64,000 nucleotides of DNA from Pelodera strongyloides (taxonomy: Eukaryota; Nematoda; Chromadorea; Rhabditida; Rhabditidae). Shown in pieces: positions 8,132 to 63,780 of this stretch; the stretch's first letter is position 1; the number at the start of each line of letters is the position of its first letter. Below the pieces are notes generated by a model that made no database searches, was not told the origin of the DNA, and saw only the letters and a program-made list of their open reading frames with translations. The DNA lies in contig JAANDG010000323.1 in assembly GCA_036852015.1 (NCBI GenBank), forward strand, positions 20,001-84,000. The letters run 5' to 3'. The position numbers and the translations under genes are program-made.

Positions 8132-11100
8132 AGAACTACAACCCCTTCGTCAGCTGGAAAGTGTGGACCAAGAAGGACCTATCCATGCCGTCCAGTGTCT
8201 GGCTTCAACACACGGTTCGTAATATGCACTTTATGTCAGGATGCGGATTATCCTTTAGGTTATGAGTACATAGCAAATGAATACACTAAATTGAGCAAAT
8301 TTGGATAACTAGCGCTGATTGGAAAATGTTTACTTGCAAGAACGGCAATAACGGCATGCCGCATGCGTTTACTTTATGCGTTCGAAAAAGAGGATGTGTG
8401 GAAATGAAGTTGAAAAACATTTGTTAATTTTATTCCTGTAAATAACTGCGTCCGTTTTATTCAGGTCTTTTTGTTTTTTGTTTACGTAATGCATGAAAAC
8501 TAATATTATGTATTAAAAAACTGTTAAGCAATGAAATCGTTTTTTAAAGACCAGCAGTCTGCTGTCATTTCGCCAGCACATACCGTGGAACCAATATCTG
8601 AACTACATTCTACTGCGCCAACCGACGTCCTTACAACTGCTTCTACCGCGGGTCAACATCCTACCATTGAATTGGACCGCTCCACTTCGACAATTACTGA
8701 AGGACAGAAATATTCGTCGACTACTTCGTCTGCTCCTACGCCGTCTGAAAGTGTTGGAACAAAAATGACTTCTGAAACTGCAACCCCGTCGCTAACGGAG
8801 AAAACTCCGGAGAAAACACTTAAGCCAACTGTAACTGCGGAAGAATCAGTGGTATACGATGTGACTTCGTCGGTAAAAGGACACTCCACAGTTCAGTCTG
8901 TTGGTATCGTAATAACTTCTGGTACCGCAACAGGATTGGCCGAAAAGGAAACGACCCACGTTCCTGATGTGACGATAAAGTTTGAAACTGCAAAAACTTC
9001 TTCGGAAACCTCCTTCGAGACGACTTCAATTGAAACCACTCCTTCAAAGACGGCGACCGTGCCCTCATCTACCGCAACGAGCAAGGGAATGCCCTCTAGA
9101 ATGACAGTAAGCTACATATCTTTGGTGTTCCAAGTAAATAACAATATCTTAAAAAAGTTTTATGTTTCAACAATATGAACAAGTTGATGTCGCTTATACG
9201 GGTCACGTTTTATTTAGTTTAGCACATATGTGTATGTGCAATGAATAGTGTGAACTGTCAACATCCATTACTGATTCCTCTTATTTAGGAAACAACAGTC
9301 TTGACTGATGCGATTCAAAAACATATGGAAACTACAAAACAAACCTCACCGACGACCACCGGCAAGATGTCTTCTGTTGAGACCGATTCCCCTTCTTCGG
9401 CTACAACTTCTGTCCAGGACAAAAGGACAACTATGGAAAAGAAACTTGATAGTTCTGCAGGCCTATCCGTCGAGCACCGCAACTCAGGGAAGCAGATCTG
9501 CATCACGAACAGTCGACCATTCTTCAACAAGTGCACATGATATTGCGCTTTCTTCGCACGCCGCGACGGTAACAAGTGATGGCTCCCCCAGTTCAAATGT
9601 AACGTCAACGACTACCGAGGCCACTGTCGGCATAGAAGTGTCTTCTGCGTCACAGCTAGAAGGGCAGACAACAAAGGTTACAGAAACGAGACTGACTTCA
9701 AGCGCCGGCGCAGAACATCTTGCGACTGAGAATATTGAGAAGACCCAAATCACTGAACTTCCAGAACCAACCGAGACAAGTTCACCGAAACTTGATGAAA
9801 CCTCTGCTCAGCAGACTCAATCCGAAAAGCTCGTGACAAGGTCCAGTGCTGATTCGACAAAGCCCACGGAAAGCGCCATGGAATTCGAAAAAGGTTCCAC
9901 TATGGTAGCCGGGCCCCTATATAGCTCACATACAAGCTCAACAGAAATGACAACGAAGGAAACTGATCAACGGACAGAGACGCCGTCTCCACCGACCTCT
10001 TCAAGGACAAGCCAACAAACTGATCACTCCTCAGCTTCAACAGGCGCACGCCCTCTCACTTCTGGATCTTACCAGCGGACAGCCGATAGAACCACTGCGG
10101 AAATGTTCTCAAAATCCGTTGAATCAGCCATGCCGAAAAGCACTCCAGCCCCAAAAGTGAGCAAAAAGCCCATTATATCGAAGTTGCCCAAGCAAACAAC
10201 AGTTGCAAACTACGTGACCACCACGAAATCGCCAGTCTTACTGTTGGAGACGACCCAGGACCGTTCCCTGACAACCCATGTTCCCGATTCCGTAAGTTTT
10301 ACACATTTCTTTAACGGAATGTTTGAACTGCTTATAAGCTGCTTAGTCACAGCAAGATTCCAGTATTTTTTGACCTCGTGATGTCGGGAAACTATGTTTC
10401 AGTTACACAAATATTCAATTCAGGTGACATTCGTCAACATCTTCAAGACCGCCGCCACCACAGAAAGTTTGTTTTTGGTAATATCAGATATCGTGGTTTG
10501 ATCCTAAATGCCCAAAATATGACTCCTTTAACATAAGCGATATATGCGACAGCGGATGTTACGAAAACGTTATGTGGCGCGCATACACAAAGAAGTGGAA
10601 GTAATTTTTGGCATACTAGTATGTAAGTCAAATCGAGCCTAGTTTGAAGACTCACAAAAAGAAACACAAAAAAACCCTTGAATACTGTTTGCATTACAGG
10701 CACTCCTGGGTACTGTGGCCAATCGTGTCCCGATCAGTTCTGGGATTCGGGAGATATGTGCTACCTGCTTGTTCCCCGTCCACAGTCCGTCTCGTATATC
10801 CGTGCGATCAGTTACTGCCAGGTTTGTTCCGCGAACGAGTCGACGACAGTCTTTTACTACCTTATGCAGCATACATAGAGCAATATGCGGTGTTCGTTTC
10901 TTAGCGTCTTAACTTGCATGGCGCAGTCTCCACTGCACCGGTCGCTGGTTCGAGTCCGGCCCGGAACCCCTTCACCCCATTAAAGGTGTAAAAGTTGGTA
11001 GCTGGGTAAAACCGGCGGAGATAAATCGGCTTCCCGAAAAAATTGGCTTCCGGGAAGTTTAAAGGCCAGTTCGTTCGGCTTCAGAAGTGAACCGGACCCC

Positions 11101-30687: not shown

Positions 30688-30802
30688 AATACTACCTCCA
30701 GTGAAGCATGGTACGCGAGCTTGAAATCATATATCACCCCCACTTGTATGGTGAAAATACAACCCCGACACTAGTAAAAAGAGACTGTTAAACAATTTAT
30801 GT

Positions 30803-32429
30803 TCAATTTTTCAAATCTCCCGCTATTTCCTTGGCAGCCGCCGCTTTTAAATCGATAACATATTGATCAAGTTGGTCCATTAGATCCTGTCGGAGAAGTT
30901 TTCGGAAGAAAGGGCGAGTTCGACTCCAAGAAGGCAACACACCCTCTGGCAGATGGGCATCCTCGTACAAGGAGAGATTCAACTGAAACGAAACAAAATT
31001 ATAACAATTATGAAATTGCTTTATTATTAAAACACATACTCCCTACTACTATGTCAAAAAGTCTACCTGTCATCTACCGTTTGTCAACTACTTTGAGACT
31101 ATGTGGTGTCCAAAAATGTGGTCGAAAAGATCTTTTTTGAGATGATTTAGAAAAAATTGAGATGCATGGTTGCCAAGTGCTCCTCAAATGGTTCGGCATG
31201 CATAAAGCAGAGAATCGTCCCCTAATGGCACAACCCCCGTTTTCTATCTTCTATCTATGTAACGACAATGATCACCTTTTCAATTTCTTCTTCGCTCGGC
31301 CATCCACTACGATCAATACGTAGAATTGCCCACTTATATTCACCAATTTGAGGGGCCGTTTGTCTAAAGTATGTTTCTCTACTATGTATAAGGTAACTCT
31401 TTAATCTTTCCGCATCCCCTTCCGCTCTCCCTTGCTGTCTCCACCAGGGGTATACGGATGGCACACGTGTCGCGCTATTCTGGCTCACATAGCGTGTGCC
31501 AATTCAAACGGTGAACGAGGCATGCGCCCAGTTAGACTCAAAAGTTTTGTGTTACCATACCTCTCCTTCCACATGTGAATCCAGTACGAAAGTAGAAGTT
31601 GATCAACGAACCAACTGCTCACTGCTTTCTTATCAGTGTCACCAGAGAGAACCCCTGAATACGTATCTTAAGTAAGGTTCCACCGGTCGCTAAGCGAATG
31701 GTAAGGTCGTTTTGTAAACCTTACCTTGAGGTAAAAGGATGGAACATGGCGTATACTAGATGAGGTACACAGTTACTTTAGAGTGTAGTGCATGCCTACT
31801 ACGTACGTACTGTTCGCTAATATTTGTGTTACCTTTATTATTAAACACAGCTCTGTTGAAATGCTGCAATAGTACATCTTCTATAGCTTCTCCATCTTCA
31901 TAAAGGTCGATGGATTGAGGTCCTAAAATGTACATGAGAGAGAACGACATATGATCACCATTTAAAGCAAATACCGGTCGGTTTTTGAAACGCATCGTGG
32001 ACAACTGAATTCTTACGCATCGACGCTGATCTGCTCGAATTTAGCTCGATTTTTATCCTAATTTATGTTCATTTGCACACGCTGCTGGTATTTCGCTTTA
32101 AATGGGGTTTTACTAATGTGATTTTCGAATTCTTGTTTATGTTTCCTAATGTGGTTTAGCAAATTTATCGCAGTTAACATAACAAAACAAAAAATAAGAA
32201 CTTTAAAAAATAATCAAAAATATCCCACCAATCACCTCTCTCCATGCCTTGACCTGCATGGCTACAGTACATATTGGGTACATTCGGAATGTTAAACCAC
32301 GAAAGTTCACTTGATTACAACATTGTGAATTGAAGATGAACATCTGAAGAGTTTATAATCAGCATAGAAAGCGAGGAGGGTTTTTTGAGATGAAGAGAGA
32401 GAGACAGAGAGGGAGAGAGAGATTGCGAT

Positions 32430-32460
<31 letters not shown>

Positions 32461-33240
32461 ATGAAGAAATAAAGAAAGAGTAGTAGCCATTAACTAAATC
32501 TTACTTGATGTGAAGCATTATTCCAGTGTTTCTCCCTCTTTAGTGGAATATAATCAGCATCAGATGTCAGAACGACAGAGTTCTCCGTCAGAGCCAGACG
32601 ACGAGACAGTGGAGCAAATATACGACACATCTGTGTAGGAAAATTACGTCAGAATATATATTTACGAATTTACTTATTCGGGCAGCTATTGTTAGTTGGT
32701 TAGTTCTATTTAACCTCTCAAAGCGCGTTTGGACACCCATTTCTGCAACGCTATGCTATGAGCGCGTCGAAAATTTAAGTTAATAAACAAGATGTTTATC
32801 ATATATTTGAGTTGATCAAATACCTGAGCCACTGTGTATCCAGGCAGCTCCTGATTTCTGAGAAAAACATGGGAAATATTGTTTTGTTCGAGAAAATTCA
32901 CAAAAATTTTTGCAGTTTCTGTTTGAAATTCGATCGAATCGCCCACAAGACAGACTATAGCTGAAAAGATAGCATTTAGTATTTTTTAATGTCAGGATAT
33001 CTATGCTTCTTTCTCGTCTCAGACTTGAGTAGTTACCTTTTTTTAATAAGCTTTCTTGTTTAAAACATATAATTACCCTAATGTGTGTGTACTACTTATT
33101 TAAGGTAACTTACGTGTTATGCCGAGATTTATCCATGAAATAGCAGCGAGAGGTATAGAGTGTAGATACTGTGGATCGGCTGTAGACGAGAGAGAAGCAT
33201 AGATATCCTGTTTTTGTTCAGTTTCAGTAGGAATGGAATT
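30803..33240 (-). CDS. Putative DxD glycosyltransferase-like protein, copy A (5' exon not found)
   Basis: Eight exons read on the minus strand and close in phase: 33240-33114, 32960-32824, 32630-32505, 32343-32229, 31922-31833, 31654-31561, 31438-31276, 30982-30803 (stop), giving 343 residues without a start. It is a paralogue of copy B at 36858-40342. Shared features in order: AxSWINxG, PIVCLxG, the segment VVLTSDADYIPLKREKHWNN with a DAD (DxD-type, metal/nucleotide-sugar) motif, a double Cys (FNSQCC), MYPICTV, a WFVDQ block, RIDRSGWPSEEEIEK and DAHLPEGV. DxD in such a context suggests a Golgi or ER nucleotide-sugar transferase, but the exact family is not assigned. Copy A has a longer C terminus than B (LKAAAAKEIAGDLKN). 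A MITE sits in its intron at 31962-32102. The signal-anchor exon present in B is not recognisable upstream, so it may be diverged or lost. Confidence 0.7.
31962..32102. mobile_element. MITE, TTAAAGCGAAATACCGGCC family, short copy
   Basis: Ends TTAAAGCAAATACCGGTCGG and GGTATTTCGCTTTAA; the left arm retains 'tttttgaaacgcatcgtgga' but the right arm is shortened. It lies between exons 32343-32229 and 31922-31833 of glycosyltransferase-like copy A. Confidence 0.8.
32390..32465. repeat. (GA)n microsatellite
   Basis: A run of ga dinucleotides with interruptions (gagagagacagagaggg, gagagagagagagaga), in an intron of copy A. Confidence 0.9.
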
Positions 33241-36857: not shown

Positions 36858-39800
36858 CTAATTTTTTAGAGATGCTACATATTCCTGAAGGGCCACAAAT
36901 AGATGTGGACTTAAAAGCTTTAGGAATAAGGGCCTTGTTAAGGGCCATGATTTGGCCACACCGAATGGTAGATGGGCATCCATCCAGTTTGTCAGGTTCT
37001 CCTGGAATAAAATGGGCTTACACTGCACCTCATTAGCATACATTGTACTTACCTAACCTAACTTACACCTTACCGTACTTTACGTAGCATACAGACGTGT
37101 ACGTGTCGTGAGCCCAGCTAGTGCACCTGTGACGCAAATACTGCACACTATACAAAATGTGTGCCACAATAACAGGCGGAGTTTTAAAACTTTGGCGCGG
37201 CACTGGCGCACCGTACGCGCACAGTGGAGGAGTCCAACACCTTTAGTGTTGTTAGATAACTTAATAAATGCACTAACTCTGTTAATTCTTATCTCTGATG
37301 GCCATGCAATTCTGTCCATACGTCCGACAACGTTTTTCTGTTCTACGATCGTTCCATTGTACCTGAAGGATTGTTTTTTTTTTTGGAGGCATGGAAGATG
37401 TATTTTATCTTGGTACAGTAAGGGAAGAGTTTCAATGATTATTAAAGCGAAATACCGGGCGGTTTTTGAAACACATCGAGTACACCAACAATGCTTTAAC
37501 GTGAATACCGGAATACGCGCTTCATGCCGAAGACCGTTTCATGACCAAGTACCGAAAAATTCTAGTTTTCACATTTCAAAAAATCCATCACAACTAACAA
37601 ACTAACTTCTCTTTCCATATATCAATCCAATAGGAGAGAATTTTCTGGTCAGTATACCAATTGGCTGAACCTTTGGCAGTCGATTCTGAACAGAACAGCG
37701 TTAGGTTTAGATAATTACCTTTCCAATACTACACGGGGACTTTTCTGTGTACTCACGAATTTGTATGCTTATAGGAAGCAGCTGAAACGTTCTCACATAA
37801 GATAAGAGCTCACATTAAATAAAATGCAAATCTTAAAGCAACCCCCACCCTCGAAAAAACCGATCCCAAAGAAATCGATTAGTATTGATTCGAGTATCGT
37901 CACATTCTCATACGCATTGCCCATTGTACCTGTAAGTATGTAATTTAACGGCACGGCTCCTTATGCAATTTCGTTGCAGCTAAGGCTAAGGATATATCAT
38001 TAAAACATTGCACACGTCCCAAGAGTTCTCAAAATAAAGTGTTCTAGTTAAATTCTGATAAATAACGTAAGCAGTTTGGCATAGCTGGAATTCGTCGTCT
38101 GAACCTTATTCTTAGTTTATGTGCTTGTGCTTCTGTATGTGAAATAGTTGCACAGAAAGGCACACAAGTTTAAACGCACTGACTCAATACAATACAGTGT
38201 TCAGAATAATCTAGAATTTCAAAAAGCACCTTCCACACCACTTTAAACAAAAAAGAGTACCAAAAATCCTCCTCCAGTCGTCCCTTCGTGCACCAATTGT
38301 ACACATTGGATACATTGGAAATACGCGGTTTTTCACATTCAAATTTCCACAGCAGGCAGAGTTGTAAAGGAATAACTGAAGAATGAAAATAAAGAAAAAT
38401 TACAAATTTTTGTATCCTTTTGAGTTTTGAGTTTAGGACACCGAATGAAACTCAGCTTGCGTAAAACACAAAATGCATGTTATTGTCTAAAGAAATCAAG
38501 ATACCAAGAGCCAAGCTATGCTTGAACGAACGGTTTTCAATGTATAATTGTGGCCTCGGACCTTAGAAGAGGTCTGTATAAGAAAGATAACATCCAACTC
38601 CAAGAAAGAAAAGTGGTTTGGCATACATCGGATCTTGCTTGCCAGTGTTGGTACAGATGAAAGGGAACAAAATCAGCATCTCCGGTTATGAAAATGTCAT
38701 CTGGGAGAAATTCCTCAGAAGTTGCAGGGAACATACGACATGTCTGAAAGAAACTAAATTTCAAGCGGTATGGCACTCGGTTTTAAAACAGGTTCGGCCA
38801 TTCACGGAATGGCACAGAAGTTTCCGTAATGTTACAAAAAACGTGCGGCATCGCTTTTAAATTTACAGGGATGAGTTCAACGTCAAAAATAAGTGAAAAA
38901 TAAATGCAAAAAAACCTTACCTGTGAAATAATATGTGCCGGTATCTTGGTCGGATTGAGAAACCGATAATCTATATTAAATTTCTCAAATAATTTGAACA
39001 CTGGCTGCATTTCTTTGGAGGAATAGTCCTCAGCACGACCGGCAAGGCATACAATTGCTGAAAAAATGAGCAATAAAAGGATAAAGGGTGTCGGGCTGGA
39101 ATTTTCGGGTATTAGGAACAGTAAAATAAAAGATAGAATAAACACAAGAAACGTTAGTTTATGTACTTGTTCGCGTATATTTTTGTCGCCGCCTGTACGC
39201 CAGAACTGCGCGGAAATTTTCTTCGCGAGCGCCCCTGACTCACCAGCGGATGACCGCCATTCATGGGCCATCGACAAGGAGATTTTTCTTAATTTTTTCT
39301 TTATTTTGTTGCCGCAGCTTAATTAGCTACGGATGGCAATGGAGATACACAGTCATCGTATCTCGAGCGCCATCCGACATTAGCTAGCGTATCATACTCA
39401 AGAAACCATCACGAATCCGGTAATAACGTACGCTTAGCTCCAATATTGATCCACGACAACGCCGCAAGAGGTAGAGACAGGAAGTACTGTGTGTGATTTG
39501 TAGAGGACAGAGAAGCAAACACCTAACAAAAATCAATAGTAGACGAAGTTATATATAGAGAAGTTCGTTTAATACATATACATATGTTTAATATAAGAAC
39601 TATAAGAACAGGCAATTTAGTTTAGCTGCAACAAAATGAAAAACCTACACACTACAAACTACAAACTGCGGAAATTTTTTTTTTAATTATTATTTTATTA
39701 AAATACCATCGGTTTTTCTCGTTTCGATATAATTGGTTGTTTCCAAGGTTCATCCTGAGATGGAAGATAACTTTTGTAAACTCGTTCGTCTATTGATATT

Positions 39801-42479: not shown

Positions 42480-42610
42480 GGATGGGATGAACTTCTAACA
42501 ATTAGATTTTCAATAATTTTAACTTTAAATTGACATTTACTTTTTTTTGTTTTATAACTTACCCGGGTGCGTGATAAGCGGCTTACTCATTGGCAGTTTA
42601 TCCGGCACCC
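42480..42610 (-). repeat. Inverted partial copy of the exon-array unit
   Basis: On the minus strand this reads 'ccgcttatcacgcaccc' then 'gggtaagtta' and 'aaatgtcaatttaaagtta', that is the 3' end of the repeated 54-nt exon, its splice donor and the start of its intron. It lies just upstream of the array in opposite orientation and lacks most of the exon. Confidence 0.75.
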
Positions 42611-42635
42611 CTGTATCTTATAAAAAAATGTAGTG

Positions 42636-42835
42636 TTAAAGGGTCAGGCCCACTTCAGTTAACCATTCTTTTTGAAAACTTCATCTGAGTCTCCATGACT
42701 GCCTTTGGGGTAAATTGTTGGTTACTGCGCGAATTACGCCTGAGAAGAACTTGACCTGTTACAATCGACTATACATGGAGAATCAGATAAAGTCCTCAAA
42801 AATAAGGGTTACCTGAAGTGGGCCTGACCCCTTAA
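42636..42835. mobile_element. TTAA-type MITE (GGGTCAGGCCCA family), full-length 200 bp
   Basis: Ends TTAAAGGGTCAGGCCCACTT and AAGTGGGCCTGACCCCTTAA, arms continuing 'cagttaacc' against 'ggttacctg'. It lies directly upstream of the first exon of the tandem array, whose introns hold half of a related element. Confidence 0.85.
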
Positions 42836-42908: not shown

Positions 42909-45900
42909 GACGATGCCAAATAGAATGTACGCTCCGGCTTATCCCGCTTATCACGCACACGGGTAAGTTATGAAAATAAATGTCAATTTAAAGTTAAAAT
43001 TATTGAAAATCTAAATTGGTGAATTTTGCGCTTGAAAATCAGAAAAGTATCGTATCCTACTTTATTTAACATGGAGAAACAGATAAAACCATTAAAAATA
43101 GGGGTCATTTGGGCCTGACCCTTTAACGTTAAAGCGAAATGCCAGCTCCTTTGGAAAATTTGCATATGATAAGCAAATCCTATGAATCCTATGCTAATTT
43201 TGCGCGATCGTCCACGGCTATCGCGCAAAATTAGCATAGAATACATAGGATGTGCTTATCATATGCAAATTTTCCAAAGGAGCTGGCATTTCGCTTTAAA
43301 ATGATTGGAAGGTGAATAGTCCCGCGCCGGTAGTCGAATAGTTAGAAGTTAATTGCCATTAGAAACTTATCCTAATCTCGTTTTAGGACGATGCCAAATA
43401 GAATGTACGCTCCGGCTTATCCCGCTTATCACGCACACGGGTAAGTTATGAAAATAAATGTCAATTTAAAGTTAAAATTATTGAAAATCTAAATTGGTGA
43501 ATTTTGCGCTTGAAAATCAGAAAAGTATCGTATCCTACTATATTTAACATGGAGAAACAGATAAAACCATTAAAGATAGGGGTCATTTGGGCCTGACCCT
43601 TTAACGTTAAAATGATTGGAAGGTGAATAGTCCCGCGCCGGTAGTCGAATAGTTAGAAGTTAATTGCCATTAGAAACTTATCCTAATCTCGTTTTAGGAC
43701 GATGCCAAATAGAATGTACGCTCCGGCTTATCCCGCTTATCACGCACACGGGTAAGTTATGAAAATAAATGTCAATTTAAAGTTAAAATTATTGAAAATC
43801 TAAATTGGTGAATTTTGCGCTTGAAAATCAGAAAAGTATCGTATCCTACTATATTTAACATGAGAGAAGAGAAACAGATAAAACCATTAAAGATAGGGGT
43901 CATTTGGGCCTGACCCTTTAACGTTAAAATGATTGGAAGGTGAATAGTCCCGCGCCGGTAGTCGAATAGTTAGAAGTTAATTGCCATTAGAAACTTATCC
44001 TAATCTCGTTTTAGGACGATGCCAAATAGAATGTACGCTCCGGCTTATCCCGCTTATCACGCACACGGGTAAGTTATGAAAATAAATGTCAATTTAAAGT
44101 TAAAATTATTGAAAATCTAAATTTGAAAAAATAGGGGTCAATTGGGCCTGACCCTTTAACGTTAAAGCGAAATGCCAGCTCCTTTGGAAAATTTGCATAT
44201 GATAAGCAAATCCTATGTATCCTATGCTGATTTTGCGCGATCGTCCACGGCTATCGCGCAAAATTAGCATAGGATACATAGGATTTGCTTATCATATGCA
44301 AATTTTCCAAAGGAGCTGGCATTTCGCTTTAAAATGATTGGAAGGTGAATAGTCCCGCGCCGGTAGTCGAATAGTTAGAAGTTAATTGCCATTAGAAACT
44401 TATCCTAATCTCGTTTTAGGACGATGCCAAATAGAATGTACGCTCCGGCTTATCCCGCTTATCACGCACACGGGTAAGTTATGAAAATAAATGTCAATTT
44501 AAAGTTAAAATTATTGAAAATCTAAATTGGTGAATTTTGCGCTTGAAAATCAGAAAAGTATCGTATCCTACTATATTTAACATGGAGAAACAGATAAAAC
44601 CATTAAAGATAGGGGTCATTTGGGCCTGACCCTTTAACGTTAAAATGATTGGAAGGTGAATAGTCCCGCGCCGGTAGTCGAATAGTTAGAAGTTAATTGC
44701 CATTAGAAACTTATCCTAATCTCGTTTTAGGACGATGCCAAATAGAATGTACGCTCCGGCTTATCCCGCTTATCACGCACACGGGTAAGTTATGAAAATA
44801 AATGGCAATTTAAAGTTAAAATGATTGAAAATCTAAATTGGTGAATTTTGCGCTTGAAAATCAGAAAAGTATCGTATCCTACTATATTTAACATGGAGAA
44901 ACAGATAAAACCATTAAAGATAGGGGTCATTTGGGCCTGACCCTTTAACGTTAAAATGATTGGAAGGTGAATAGTCCCGCGCCGGTAGTCGAATAGTTAG
45001 AAGTTAATTGCCATTAGAAACTTATCCTAATCTCATTTTAGGACGATGCCAAATGGAATGTACGCGCCGGCTTATCCCGCTTATCACGCACACGGGTAAG
45101 TTATGAAAATAAATGTCAATTTAAAGTTAAAATTATTGAAAATCTAATTTGTTAATGAAAGGAACGGTCCCATAAAATAAACTTATATTTAGCACGATTT
45201 TATAATTAGTATAAACGGGGATTATTATAATGCCAGCCGTTCGAAGAGAAGGACTGGAGGAATCGACCTTCGGCCGATTGTTACCCTATTTAACAACAGA
45301 ATTTCTACAAAGTTAAACAGACAATTTTCGTATCTCTGTGTAGAGCAGAGGGTTGCCCGTATCAGAAGCTAGCATAGCTCAGCAGGCAGAGCATTGGACT
45401 GTGGATCGAGAGAAAGAGTGCTTGTGGGTTCGAATCCCGCAAGCGGCATTGTATATTCTCTATATTTTCTTTCGATTGCGATCGTATATTTGTGAAAAGG
45501 CTTCGCCCCGTTCACACAAAACGACAATCAAAATGATAAACAAACTCTTCTCCTTTATATAATAAGAAGATATGCACGCTAAATATAAATTTCGGCTAGA
45601 TTTCGGGGTCGAAATTTTTCGGGGTCGACAACAATACCGTTGGCGCAAAACAATTGCACCCTTATTTCCTTACCGGCCGTTCGAAGAGCACTACGGGCTC
45701 TTCTCCGACTGGAGGAATCGGCCTTCGGCCGATTGTTTCCCTATTTAAAAATAGGATTGCTACAATGTAAAAAGTTAACTCTCGTCTCTTTCTCCTCCCA
45801 CATATTCACACGTCTCTGATTGTGGAAACGTATAATAATCAGTTTAGACCTCCACTCGACTAATGCTACCATGCAAATTTGTCATTGTAGTTGCTGTATG

Positions 45901-48900
45901 TAGGGCATGGGATTATCCTCATGATAAGCTAGCATAGCTCAACAGGTAGAGCGTTGGACTTTGAATTGAGAGGTCGTGTGCAGTGGGTTCGAATCCCGCC
46001 AGCGGCAAAGATTTTGTATGCTCTTTCGATCGAAGAATTTTCTTTATGAAGGGATTTCATTGTGCACGTAAAAAACAAAATCATAAACAAAGTCTCTGAC
46101 AAGTCATAAACAAACTCTTCTCCTTTATAGCCCGTATTCTCGGGCTGCACGGAACTTCAAAAATGGGAACATGTTCCGGGAAAATATGCGCGCGGAAATC
46201 TTCCGCTGCGGAACTGGTTCCGCTCTGGATGGGCGCCAGAATACGAATCGAACGGAACATGTTCCATGTAGTTTAAAACTTTCATATTTTGAGTTTATAC
46301 TATAATGTTTTATTGTTTTTATATATAAGTTAACACATATGTTCTTTGTTTAAAGAGTTATAGCAAATTTCTAGCATTTATGTGCTTAATTTTTCATTAA
46401 CGAACTGTAAATTTAACGAAAATTATTCTGTAAAAATAAAAAAGGTGAAAGAAAAACAAATAACAAAAAATTACAAAAGAAATAAAATAAAAATAGAGCA
46501 ACGGAAAATTTCCGTCGTGATTTCCCACCCAAAAACCTCGGGGAAATTTTTGTATGGAAAAAAATTCCGTTTTGCCGAACGGAAATTTGCAGACTACAAA
46601 CTACGCGCTCCGTTTTTTCGAGAATACCACTCTTTTCGCGGAACGGAACGTGTTCCGCGACGGAAAATTTCCGTGCGCCCGAGAATACGGGCTTATATTT
46701 CCTTATGCTTATGAGGTTTGCAAGTATCCCATAAATTCGGTGTGATTCTGTCTACTACCGTATTTCTGCACGAAGCCCGCATATATAATACGAAAAATCA
46801 AAAAATATTACCGCGTGTTCAGGGGGAATATGGCTGTATTATAGACAGATACTCTCCTGAGACACAGAGCCAGTAACCCTCGGGCCACACGGTAAGAATT
46901 AGGGTGCAATTGTTTTGTGCCTACGGTATAGTTATCCGAATATCGAAACCAAAAATTTCAGCGGCATAAAGTCTAGCCGAAATTTAGTGTACATATATAT
47001 AATAATAATCCCACTTATACAAGTTATAAAAACATGCTAAATATGGGTTTATTTTGATGGGCATGTCCCTTTAATAACCATAAAACTTACCCTAAATCTC
47101 GTCTTAGGACGATACCAAATCGGGTTTGCCAGTGCCACATGTGTTGGCCGGCACACAGGTAAACCATATAACCCCAATAACAACAAATCTAAAAAATACT
47201 AATTAAAGGGATCGGTTCACCTTAAATTGTGTCTGTTTTTTTTTGTTTCTTTATTTTCTGTAAGGGATAGTAAAAATTTGGAATAGAAAAAGTGGTGTTC
47301 AATTTCAATACTCACGAAGATATTGGGTGATAAAGTGGTGGATTGATCGGGCCGAAATGCAAAAAGGGCAATTGTCCTACCTTGTTTGTATAGGACAATT
47401 GCCCTTTTTGCATTTCGGCCCGATCAATCCACCACTTTATCACCCAATATCTTCGTGAGTAGTGAAATTGAACACTACTTTTTCTATACCAAATTTTTAT
47501 TATCCCTTATAACTTATAGAAAATAAAGAAACAAAAAAACAGACACAATTTAAGGTGAGCTGATCCCTTTAACCCTGACCTAACCTCTTTTTAGGACGAT
47601 GTGCAATGGGATGCCCGCGTGGGCTCCCGAAAACGAAGAAGAAAGCCCCACGAAGAGTTTCTGGAAAGAGGTGCTGTTCTGAGTACTGAGTGGAGTAAAC
47701 TAAGTAGTACTGTCGTGAGCGATGCAGATGGTCAAATGTTAAATCAGTTGAACAGCAAAGGAAATCGTTTGTAAAATGCATGACTCTAATTCATTGTTAC
47801 GCATTTTGTTGTTGGCGAACCTACATCGGTATCCTTTTTCAGCATGCTGTCATGATGTTGTAAAAGGTAGTTCTTATCGGCTGTCCATACGGTACACTGG
47901 CTGAGTACATTTCGTTGTGGACCAAACATATACATTAAAAAAAAGTTTACATTTTAAAAGGTTGTTTTAGGCAGAGTTGCTGGAAAGACGAATTGAGGAA
48001 CAAGACAGAAGGCTTGAGGTACGCAGTTAATGGGATTTTCTTTGAAGACTAAGCCTAAGCTTAAGCCTGCTACTACGACTAATTGTAAGCGCTAGAAGCG
48101 AATGACTTCAGTTTCTTTCGTATAATGTATTTATTTGAGGCTTTGGGAAGGGCTATAACTAGCTGGCTGCGAAGGAAAGATGAGCTGAACTTGTTTAGCG
48201 AAAGGGAAGCGCCCTGCATCAGGTTTGATTTTACACTGATTATCATTGTCACGACAATGCCACTGGTGAACTGATGGCCAGTTTTTGAAACGTATTTGAA
48301 GCATGTAAATTCTCATATTATCCATGCAAATGAAGATAATTAGTCTAATAATCGAGCAGTGGTCGTGCAGTAATCTATATACACTATAAATTGTTGACTG
48401 TGATCGAAAAATTGGGGTATTGGACGAGCGAGAATCGATCCCAGTGTCTTTGGATTGCCGATCCACTGCGTGAACCACTACGCTACCGCCACCCACCGCC
48501 AAATGTTTCAAGCAGATGCCCGTATGGGCGAGAGGCCTGTATTATTTGCGTGCATTCACTTTGTCACATATAATACACTCTTGGTATTGCGGATCTTAAT
48601 ATGGGATTGTGGTATTTAACCCCCCGGACAGCTGGGCATTTGACTCACGCCTTGGCGAACCTTAACAGGGCTCTCGCCCACACGGGTATGTGATTGAAAC
48701 ATTGGGGGTGGGTGGCGGTAGCGTAGTGGTTAACGCAGTGGGCCGGCAATCCAAAGACGCTGGTTCGACTCCAGCTCCAATACTCCAATTTCCAATACTC
48801 CAATTTTTCGATCACAGTCAAAATATATGAAATTTGGCTCATGTCAGAGCTGCCATAAAGTCCCTTGTATTATTTGCATTCACTTTGGCACATATATACG

Positions 48901-49339
48901 CTATATATCAGGATACAGAGTCGCCCGTACGTTTTAAAACTGACCGTTAACTTATATAGTTCGACTTTCGTATTGCACGCTGACGAAAGTTGGCGTGCAA
49001 GCGGTAGCTTTTCGAAAAACCCAACGGCGTGCAACTTGCCCGTCATTATCATGCCGCAACGTTAACGTAGCCGTTCGCACGCCAATTTACACGTTGAACG
49101 CACAACAACTTGAATATGCTAGTGCGCTTGGGAAAGCACCTTGTCCGTTAAGCATGTAACTTGAGAAGTGCAACCAGAAACTTTGACCAAATAATCGCCA
49201 AGATTATAACAAAACGCGTCTTATAAACTGTTTCAATGCATGTATTATAGTTTTCGTTATTATAATAAATTTGCAATATTTTCTTCAGAGGAGAACCTTC
49301 GGCAAGCCCAGATACGGACCCTTCGGAGGGCTTTGCTGA
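42909..49339 (+). CDS. Gene with seven tandem identical exons encoding an 18-residue Tyr/Pro/Ala repeat
   Basis: Seven 54-nt exons (42909-42962, 43387-43440, 43698-43751, 44015-44068, 44420-44473, 44731-44784, 45042-45095) each follow TTTTAG and end at GG before GTAAGT. Each starts in phase 2 and encodes TMPNRMYAPAYPAYHAHG; the last copy has G instead of R. A 51-nt relative at 47108-47158 (TIPNRVCQCHMCWPAHR) and a 76-nt one at 47595-47670 (TMCNGMPAWAPENEEES) keep the phase. Then come 47971-48018 (AELLERRIEEQDRRLE, charged helix) and 49289-49339 (RRTFGKPRYGPFGGLC, stop TGA). All junctions close. Every array exon contains an in-frame ATG, so translation could begin in the first copy after a noncoding leader; no upstream coding exon is proven. 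If all exons are joined the product is about 200 residues with seven near-identical peptides, like a structural or adhesive repeat protein; function is unknown. Alternative inclusion of symmetric exons is possible. Confidence 0.68.
43129..43299. mobile_element. 171-bp palindrome inserted in array intron 1
   Basis: TTAAAGCGAAATGCCAGCTC at the left and its reverse complement at the right, arms as at 35363-35533 with minor differences (cctatgaatcc, agaatacata). Inserted at the TTAA within 'ttaacgttaa' that unoccupied units keep intact. Confidence 0.9.
44162..44332. mobile_element. 171-bp palindrome inserted in array intron 4
   Basis: Same element and the same insertion point as at 43129-43299, with slightly different arm substitutions (cctatgtatcctatgctgat). 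Its unit also lacks the 'ggtgaattttgcgcttgaaa' part of the intron. Confidence 0.9.
45368..45448 (+). mobile_element. tRNA-like SINE head (His-like anticodon loop)
   Basis: Has an A box 'tagctcagcaggcagagc', an anticodon-arm-like 'ttggactgtggatc' (loop with GTG) and a B box 'gggttcgaatccc'. The acceptor ends GCTAGCA and AAGCGGC pair poorly and the variable part is long, so a functional tRNA is unlikely. It is one of a pair with 45928-46007. Confidence 0.6.
45928..46007 (+). mobile_element. tRNA-like SINE head (Gln-like anticodon loop)
   Basis: A box 'tagctcaacaggtagagcg', arm 'ttggactttgaattgag' (loop with TTG) and B box 'gggttcgaatccc'. As in the copy at 45368, the acceptor strands do not pair well. 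The surrounding 200 bases also resemble those of the first copy ('cggccgattgtt', 'caaactcttctcctttata'). Confidence 0.6.
46131..46691. mobile_element. Foldback element with CCCGTATTCTCGGGC ends
   Basis: Left arm 'cccgtattctcgggctgcac' and 'ggaac'; right arm 'gtgcgcccgagaatacggg', with further inverted 'gttccgcgacggaaaatttcc' and related phrases. Shares ends with 27023-27165. The ORFs inside are Lys/Phe-rich by composition and look non-coding. Confidence 0.7.
47203..47572. mobile_element. 370-bp near-perfect palindrome, TTAAAGGGATCGGTTCACC ends
   Basis: Left half from TTAAAGGGATCGGTTCACCT, right half ending AGCTGATCCCTTTAA. Around the centre at about 47388 the arms match almost perfectly ('gggcaattgtcctac' against 'gtaggacaattgccc' with small changes). 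It lies immediately upstream of exon 47595-47670 and ends 22 bases before it. Confidence 0.88.
48415..48500 (-). mobile_element. tRNA-like SINE head, reverse
   Basis: On the minus strand it reads 'gtggcggtagcgtagtggtt', then 'cgatcccagtgtctttgg' in complement. It is the inverted partner of the copy at 48715-48785; both sit in the last intron of the tandem-exon gene. Confidence 0.6.
48715..48785 (+). mobile_element. tRNA-like SINE head, forward
   Basis: A-box-like 'gtagcgtagtggttaacgca' and B-box-like 'gctggttcgactccagc', followed by 'caatactccaatttttcgat'. It faces the copy at 48415-48500 to form a wide inverted pair. Confidence 0.6.
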
Positions 49340-49899
49340 AAGTATAATAATGTAACAAGAAATAATACATTCACATCGAGCACGGCTTCATTCCCGGCCC
49401 CGTTTCAAAGTCAACCAATTTACCTTTTGCGATATACGCGCTTATCCTTTTGTTAACGCGAATAGCTTTTGAATCGTATTTGGGACACATGTACATTCAA
49501 CCTATAATGTGTGTAAAATTAATATCTTATTATGTAAAAGAGTAACCGTAGCGTAATTTGCATACCGATGTGCGTTACGGAAATGCAAATTTTCGACAAT
49601 GCATAAAAAGAGTGTCGCAGCTCAATATCGAAGTATGCATATGCAATTGTTTCCTATTATGTGAATTTCTTATGATACCTTTGAAACTTTGTATGTAAGT
49701 ATGCCCATACTAAACCAAGCATATTTCCATGTAAGTCGCCTCGCCTCAGGCGGCGTGAGCCGACTGGTTACCAATAATCGCGCAGTAATTTACATACACT
49801 GCATTGGAACTTTTTGGTGTCTGCCATAAGTTTCAAAGCTGGGCATTAATATATTGTTTTAATTTCAATACGAACTTGTTAATCATGTTTCATTTTTCC

Positions 49900-63099: not shown

Positions 63100-63780
63100 C
63101 AATCGATAATTTTTCCGAGAGCCAAAAACCGCCTTAGGAGTCGAGATAGAGTCTCGAGCCCTCTGATCGATATTCATCAACTTTGCAAGACGAGTTGAAT
63201 GGAGAAATTCAAAAAATCGGTATCGATCGATAATCTATAGAAGTAGCAAAAACCGCCTTAGGAGTGAAGATAGAGACTTGAGCCCTCTGATCGATATTGC
63301 TCAACTTCGGAAGATAAGATTAATGGTCAAACTCAAAAAATCGATATCGATCGATAATCTATAGAAATAGCACAGACCGCCTTAGGAGTGAAGATAGACA
63401 CTTGAGCCCTTTGATCGATCTTGCTCAACTTTGAAAGATAAGTTGAATGGTGAAATTCAAAAACCGATATCGATCGATAATCTATAGAAACAGCAAAAAC
63501 CGCCTTAGGAGTGAAGATAGCGACTTGAGCCCTCTGATCGATATTGCTCAACTTCGAAAGATAAGATTAATGGTCAAACTCAAAAAATCGGTATCGATCG
63601 ATAATCTATAGAAGTAGCAAAAACTGCCTTAGGAGCGAAGTTGAGACTTGAGCCCCCTGTTCGATATTGCTCAATATTGAAAGATAAGTTGAATGGTGAA
63701 ATTCAAAAAAACAGCAAAAACCGCCTTAGGAGTGAAGATAGCGACTTGAGCCCTCTGATCGATATGCTCAACTCCGAAAG
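63100..63780. repeat. Tandem repeat of about 122 bp, roughly six copies
   Basis: The phrase 'accgccttaggagtgaagat' recurs at about 63128, 63250, 63377, 63499, 63624 and 63720. Each unit also carries 'gagccctctgatcgatatt', 'gctcaacttc' and the palindromic 'atcgatcgataatctatag'. Copies differ by scattered substitutions; one is shortened. Satellite-like and noncoding. Confidence 0.88.

Follow-up and report, generated by a model that had tools for sequence, protein, structure and literature searches.

A putative repeat-protein gene with tandemly duplicated 54-nt exons and two paralogous loci in the nematode Pelodera strongyloides

In fibrillar collagens, Gly-X-Y triplets are encoded by 54-bp phase-0 exons, and these genes grew by exon duplication. 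Tandemly repeated exons encoding 81-base repeats were reportedly described in a schistosome by Davis in 1988, to judge from the title of that work. In the schistosome mucins named SmPoMuc, which form a multigene family, a short exon together with its flanking introns makes up a near-identical genomic tandem repeat; the number of repeats sets the length of the repeat domain, and the repeats undergo concerted evolution (PMC2576457). There, exon 2 is 27 bp long and occurs in units of ~1 kb, in up to ~20 copies, after the signal peptide, and polymorphic transcripts were shown (PMC2576457). Schistosome MEG genes have many small exons, most of them in multiples of three and mostly of 15 bp, and encode a signal peptide (PMC10526429, PMC4015677). 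In the spider silk gene MaSp2 of Argiope, repeat units are bounded by homogenised introns, and some genes have alternating exon and intron types (PMC9779670). The first-pass annotation of the DNA analyzed here had called growth by whole exon-intron duplication uncommon; SmPoMuc and the Argiope silk genes (PMC2576457, PMC9779670) are clear precedents for it.

We analyzed a 64,000-nt stretch of the P. strongyloides genome (hereafter the window; C323:20001-84000) and searched the genome itself (159,866,919 bp in 1,171 contigs). The window contains seven 54-nt segments, all of them (7/7) flanked by TTTTAG on the 5' side and GTAAGT on the 3' side, at all seven places where the annotation had put them (Table 1). 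It had further assigned one 18-residue peptide to all seven and described units of a 311-bp type. The first of these statements holds for copies 1 to 6, which are identical in sequence and encode TMPNRMYAPAYPAYHAHG, but not for copy 7, which encodes TMPNGMYAPAYPAYHAHG and carries one silent change besides the replacement of R by G. The second holds for three of the six copy-to-copy spacings (478, 311, 317, 405, 311 and 311 bp). When the 159.9-Mb genome was searched with the repeat-start pattern AGRRYGATGCCMAAYVG, 17 places were found, 16 of them in three loci, and the reversed control gave 0. The window array is confirmed as real and as more than a chance occurrence. The seventeenth place, on C597, was taken as unrelated, with an E of 1.1 against the exon profile and no array seen by eye in the 3 kb around it.

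This array resembles SmPoMuc in having near-identical exon-plus-intron units in tandem inside what appears to be one gene, with exon lengths in multiples of three. It differs in the size of the exon (54 nt) and of the unit (~0.3 kb), in a probable coiled-coil tail and in that no signal peptide was found, and it is known from genome sequence alone. Small exons in multiples of three, as well as tandemly repeated exons that are on record, also recall the MEG genes, but most MEG exons have 15 bp and a signal peptide is present there. As in the fibrillar collagens, the exons of the array have 54 nt and appear to have multiplied by duplication; however, TMPNRMYAPAYPAYHAHG has no Gly-X-Y triplets and its exon is in phase 1 rather than 0, so that the array is not of the collagen type. 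The mode of growth itself is not new, having been described in schistosome mucins and in spider silks.

Table 1. Positions of the repeat array, its neighboring elements and the downstream exons in the window
Feature	Position	Strand	Description
Inverted repeat-unit fragment	42502..42581	-	3' exon end, donor and intron start; just upstream of array; profile E 4.5e-5
TTAA-bounded element	42636..42835	.	inverted ends, read by eye; between inverted fragment and repeat exon 1
Repeat exon 1	42909..42962	+	54 nt, phase 1-1, TMPNRMYAPAYPAYHAHG
Palindromic TTAA-flanked element	43129..43299	.	171 bp, intron after repeat exon 1
Repeat exon 2	43387..43440	+	TMPNRMYAPAYPAYHAHG
Repeat exon 3	43698..43751	+	TMPNRMYAPAYPAYHAHG
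Repeat exon 4	44015..44068	+	TMPNRMYAPAYPAYHAHG
Same palindromic TTAA-flanked element	44162..44332	.	171 bp, same intron place, after repeat exon 4
Repeat exon 5	44420..44473	+	TMPNRMYAPAYPAYHAHG
Repeat exon 6	44731..44784	+	TMPNRMYAPAYPAYHAHG
Repeat exon 7	45042..45095	+	TMPNGMYAPAYPAYHAHG, one residue differs (R to G)
Peptide type from predicted repeat region of window gene			YAPAYPAYHAHG
Cys-containing exon	47108..47158	+	51 nt, phase 1-1, TIPNRVCQCHMCWPAHR; C193 homologue of 52 nt, C74 homologue of 51 nt
Linking exon	47595..47670	+	76 nt, TMCNGMPAWAPENEEESPTKSFWKE, phase 1-0; homologue on C193
Coiled-coil exon (predicted)	47971..48018	+	48 nt, AELLERRIEEQDRRLE, phase 0-0
Coiled-coil end exon (predicted)	48140..48222	+	83 nt, ALGRAITSWLRRKDELNLFSEREAPCI(R), phase 0-2
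Last coding exon (predicted)	49289..49355	+	GEPSASPDTDPSEGFAESIIM and stop TAA 49353-49355; C193 counterpart REPSASVGPTEGFDGGIF-stop

The two other loci were found on C193, by a DNA search of the genome with one window exon, and on C74, by a genome search with a C193 exon. The C193 locus lies on the minus strand (96709 to 94616) and begins with three 54-nt repeat exons; its tail consists, in this order, of a 52-nt exon, a 64-nt linker, coiled-coil exons of 48 and 80 nt and the last exon, REPSASVGPTEGFDGGIF-stop. Unless it is dead or left out by splicing, the 52-nt exon breaks the frame, which is open only without it. The C74 locus, also on the minus strand, starts from 302770 and has nine repeat exons of 54, 57 or 60 nt that begin xMPN, xMPY or xMSN. 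Its Cys-containing exon (51 nt) is the second in order; another 51-nt exon reads TMANEMRSSVVDFLSPE, and a coiled-coil tail is present as well. The Cys-containing exon thus lies before most of the array on C74 and after the array in the window. What C193 has in common with the window is exon order, phase and tail; what C74 has in common is the type of repeat. Because the paralogues share splice boundaries, phase, the start of the repeat and the C-terminal heptad pattern, they make a strong case, at the level of sequence comparison, for reading the window exons as coding. As independent evidence of coding exons, they also favor the in-phase, skippable exons of a repeat protein that the annotation had proposed.

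No fourth locus was found among the candidates scored in protein and DNA searches with pieces of the tail; short tail exons could be missed in this way, since the same searches failed to link the three known tails either. No processed copy was present among the candidates scored, and a profile scan of the examined stretches gave no further good copy beyond the inverted fragment upstream of the array. Matches on C126 (E 1.68) and C1116 (retroelement-like frames) were taken as unrelated to the family. The C1116 stretch (L029, C1116:1-10000) contains two long facing open frames of retroelement-like sequence.

Downstream of the array, the 51- and 76-nt exons were found where the annotation had described them. 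The clean stop that it had placed right after the 76-nt exon was not there; by homology to C193, the TAA comes three exons later. These last three exons were recognised through the comparison with C193 and not from the window sequence alone, and the chain is stop-free from 42909 through 49352. A 59-residue model of the tail, with the 83-nt exon skipped and another acceptor used for the last exon, was ruled out by the same comparison; a PDB search with this superseded model had given one match, which was not meaningful (E 1.2). The a/d positions of the window tail are L4, I8, Q11, L15, L18, I22 and W25, and those of the C193 tail are M4, L8, Q11, L15, L18, I22 and M25, the kind of residue being kept between the two; the C74 tail has a heptad run of its own. 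With 4-3 heptads (register set by hand) and mostly apolar a/d positions that are kept between paralogues, the window tail looks like a coiled coil. The predicted repeat region is rich in Ala, Pro and Tyr, and this composition suggests an unstructured segment.

The proposed frame contains no stop in 143 codons of the window (counted without the identical copies), 136 codons of C193 (without the 52-nt exon) and 296 codons of C74, and the other two plus-strand frames contain 4 to 11 stops each at the three loci. None of 2000 within-exon shuffles was free of stops at any of the three loci (0/2000 each), although this control is optimistic because exon boundaries were chosen to keep the frame. It should be noted that the 143 codons of the window chain are free of stops in one antisense frame, too; the best antisense frames have 2 stops at C193 and 7 at C74. 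Among 17 aligned repeat-type exons (not counting the two linkers, five identical copies from the window and exon 11 of C74, which has GTAGGT as its donor), AG before and GTAA after are present in all 17, and 16 have 51, 54, 57 or 60 nt, the exception being the 52-nt exon of C193. Short exons in multiples of three that make up most of the coding region, the trait of SmPoMuc and MEG genes, are therefore found here as well. Linker and tail exons have 48-118 nt and are not all symmetric. Compared with shuffles, the tail exons of the window and C193 gave z values of 5.2, 2.9, 6.0, 2.7 and 1.7, and eight non-exon stretches gave -0.3 to 2.7, so that only three of the five tail exons are above the best of these. 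Synonymous/nonsynonymous comparisons all involved few counts: the ratio was 0.43 for the window and C193 repeat exons (P 0.17), pS was 0.07 and pN 0.24 for the 48-nt exon of the same pair, and the other comparisons ranged from 0.39 to 3.24, the highest being that between exon types on C74 (P 0.20). With so few sites in the window, C193 and C74, purifying selection is not shown by these counts alone.

The array might instead be a noncoding tandem repeat that spreads a dead exon, i.e., a satellite-like expansion in a decaying gene whose copies are not all used, or not used. Such an expansion would account for the near-identity of whole units, introns included, and agrees with the mobile elements in two array introns, the inverted exon fragment and rearranged sequence directly upstream, the frame break in one C193 exon and the synonymous/nonsynonymous counts. 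However, splice signals and frame are kept in 7/7 window copies, the downstream exons of the window are intact and match C193, and C74 keeps nine diverged repeat exons, all of them in frame. We consider a noncoding origin of the array improbable.

Growth by duplication of whole exon-intron units, as the annotation had proposed, is supported by the near-identical units and by the paralogues on C193 and C74. In the window, the near-identity of the units covers exons and introns alike. On their outer sides, copies 1 and 7 do not match the other units, a pattern expected from unequal exchange. Single units also bear private marks: 6 bp are inserted after copy 3, single changes are seen after copy 6 (two) and in copy 7 (two), and the intron after copy 4 is ~73 bp shorter than the others, aside from its inserted element. 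The 171-bp element is missing from the introns that follow copies 2, 3, 5 and 6, where the empty site is seen. Its two copies differ at 4/171 sites, in contrast to the identity of exons 1 to 6; this is compatible with homogenisation around an older insert, duplication of copies 1-3 as a block to give copies 4-6, or separate insertions. Near-identical tandem units are hard to assemble, and the copy number could have been inflated by the assembly; but the private marks (the elements after copies 1 and 4, the insertion, the deletion and the single changes) tell the units apart, the window contains no N, and the C74 and C193 arrays cannot be assembly copies because they are diverged. An inflated count is very unlikely.

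On C74, two exon types alternate: exons 4/6/8 share 89-95% identity, exons 3/5/7 share 84-88%, and identity between the two types is 74-81%. Exons 4 and 6 are followed by introns that are identical over 100 nt; no clear alternation is seen in the other introns. Alternating exon types and one intron repeated identically are reminiscent of Argiope MaSp2, but there two intron types alternate, whereas on C74 identity is confined to this one pair of introns. The identical tract on C74 is 143 bases long: it begins with the last 3 nt of exon 4/6, spans the 100-nt intron and ends 40 nt into exon 5/7. The 54 nt before it contain 5 differences, and the 17 nt after it contain 7. In sequence, it looks like an exchange or conversion tract. 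Change between these units is concentrated in the exon (12/114, versus 0/100 in the intron; Fisher P 0.0005); diversifying selection was considered for this excess and rejected, since 40 nt of the exon belong to the identical tract and exchange or conversion accounts for the excess. Whole exon-intron units thus appear to multiply singly in the window and, in part, in pairs on C74.

Taken together, the data make it likely that the array belongs to a protein-coding gene of a three-locus family, in which a Tyr-, Pro- and Ala-rich repeat is carried on a coiled coil and has grown as exon-intron units were duplicated and homogenised. Short symmetric (phase 1-1) exons would be joined to the tail, each adding an 18-residue repeat of the xMPNx... 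type, if splicing is additive. The tail would comprise the Cys-containing exon, the linker, a two-exon coiled coil and a short C-terminal extension. Tandem duplication, presumably by unequal exchange in the near-identical introns, would have extended the repeat region, and exchange or conversion would have homogenised the units. With symmetric exons, the gain or loss of any one of them would alter the protein by 18-20 residues and leave frame and tail untouched. An ATG is present near the 5' end of the repeat exons, and ATG ATG opens the first of them on both C193 and C74; translation may therefore begin in the first repeat exon, and its ATG is our guess for the start. These ATGs and the skippable, symmetric exons would also suit mutually exclusive exons or alternative first exons in place of additive ones, but a choice among six identical exons leaves the protein unchanged, and this is the least probable of the readings considered.

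In the coding model, the protein may be a multivalent scaffold, an oligomer that presents many copies of the short Tyr-, Pro- and Ala-rich segment and whose valence is set by the number of exons. A more far-reaching and rather doubtful extension is that the three loci of a lineage-restricted family turn over their exons independently, that repeat number varies between individuals and transcripts form a length ladder, and that exon gain acts as a valence dial on the oligomeric scaffold, similar to SmPoMuc but in an unrelated protein. If transcribed as modelled, this would be an unusually clean case of a protein lengthening exon by exon, with three stages in one family: three diverged exons (C193), nine partly of two types (C74) and seven near-identical ones (window).

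The region upstream of the arrays was compared among the three loci. In blastn and tblastn searches (up to 59.5, 58 and 20 kb), no shared upstream exon was present among the matches listed, which were interspersed repeats, known exons and weak matches. Comparison of in-phase donors across the three loci gave no shared first-exon candidate. A scan of the signal-peptide type, reaching up to 13 kb upstream, searched for hydrophobic stretches with an ATG that precede an in-phase donor and found 1, 1 and 5 at the three loci, none in common. The secreted or adhesive role suggested in the annotation thus found no support, in that no signal-peptide-type exon common to the loci was found. Approximately 5 kb upstream of the C74 paralogue and in the same direction, two stretches of the minus strand (L028:2336-2563 and 2780-2974) are exons of a sodium:dicarboxylate symporter of the SLC1 type (PF00375, the first above and the second below cut-off). 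They were rejected as the N-terminus of the C74 gene, as no convincing match was seen near the other two loci among the matches listed. A possible decayed 3' end of a C193-like repeat exon at window 42596-42615 (plus strand) was not significant (5.2 bits, E 4.4).

No protein at E<=10 in a 5.8-billion database and no Pfam family above cut-off matched the window family, so the family may be confined to a narrow lineage, or its relatives may be absent from the database. In the same searches, which may not have covered schistosome proteins, no match to MEG or SmPoMuc proteins was seen (no Pfam above cut-off, no protein at E<=10). The family is named in no title or abstract start of the literature searched, which is weak evidence, as subscription papers are poorly covered there.

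Several other features were observed in the window. The intron before 47595 contains a ~370-bp inverted-repeat element (47202-47572); C193 carries a ~90% identical copy near 91.6-92.0 kb. Sequences resembling tRNAs, which may be tRNA-derived repeats, are located at 45368-45445, 45930-46010 and 48717-48777; the first and third had Rfam tRNA matches, the second was recognised by eye, and ARAGORN called none. On the minus strand, 30800-33240 and 36860-39520 appear by eye to be two tandem gene copies, with exons ...TSDADYIPL... and ...TGDADFVPF..., and the ten ORFs of this region had no Pfam family above cut-off. Open frames at 8528-9175 and 9305-10378 (plus strand) are Ser/Thr-rich and mucin-like, with no Pfam family above cut-off. 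Finally, a 124-bp tandem repeat of approximately five copies is present at 63123-63710.
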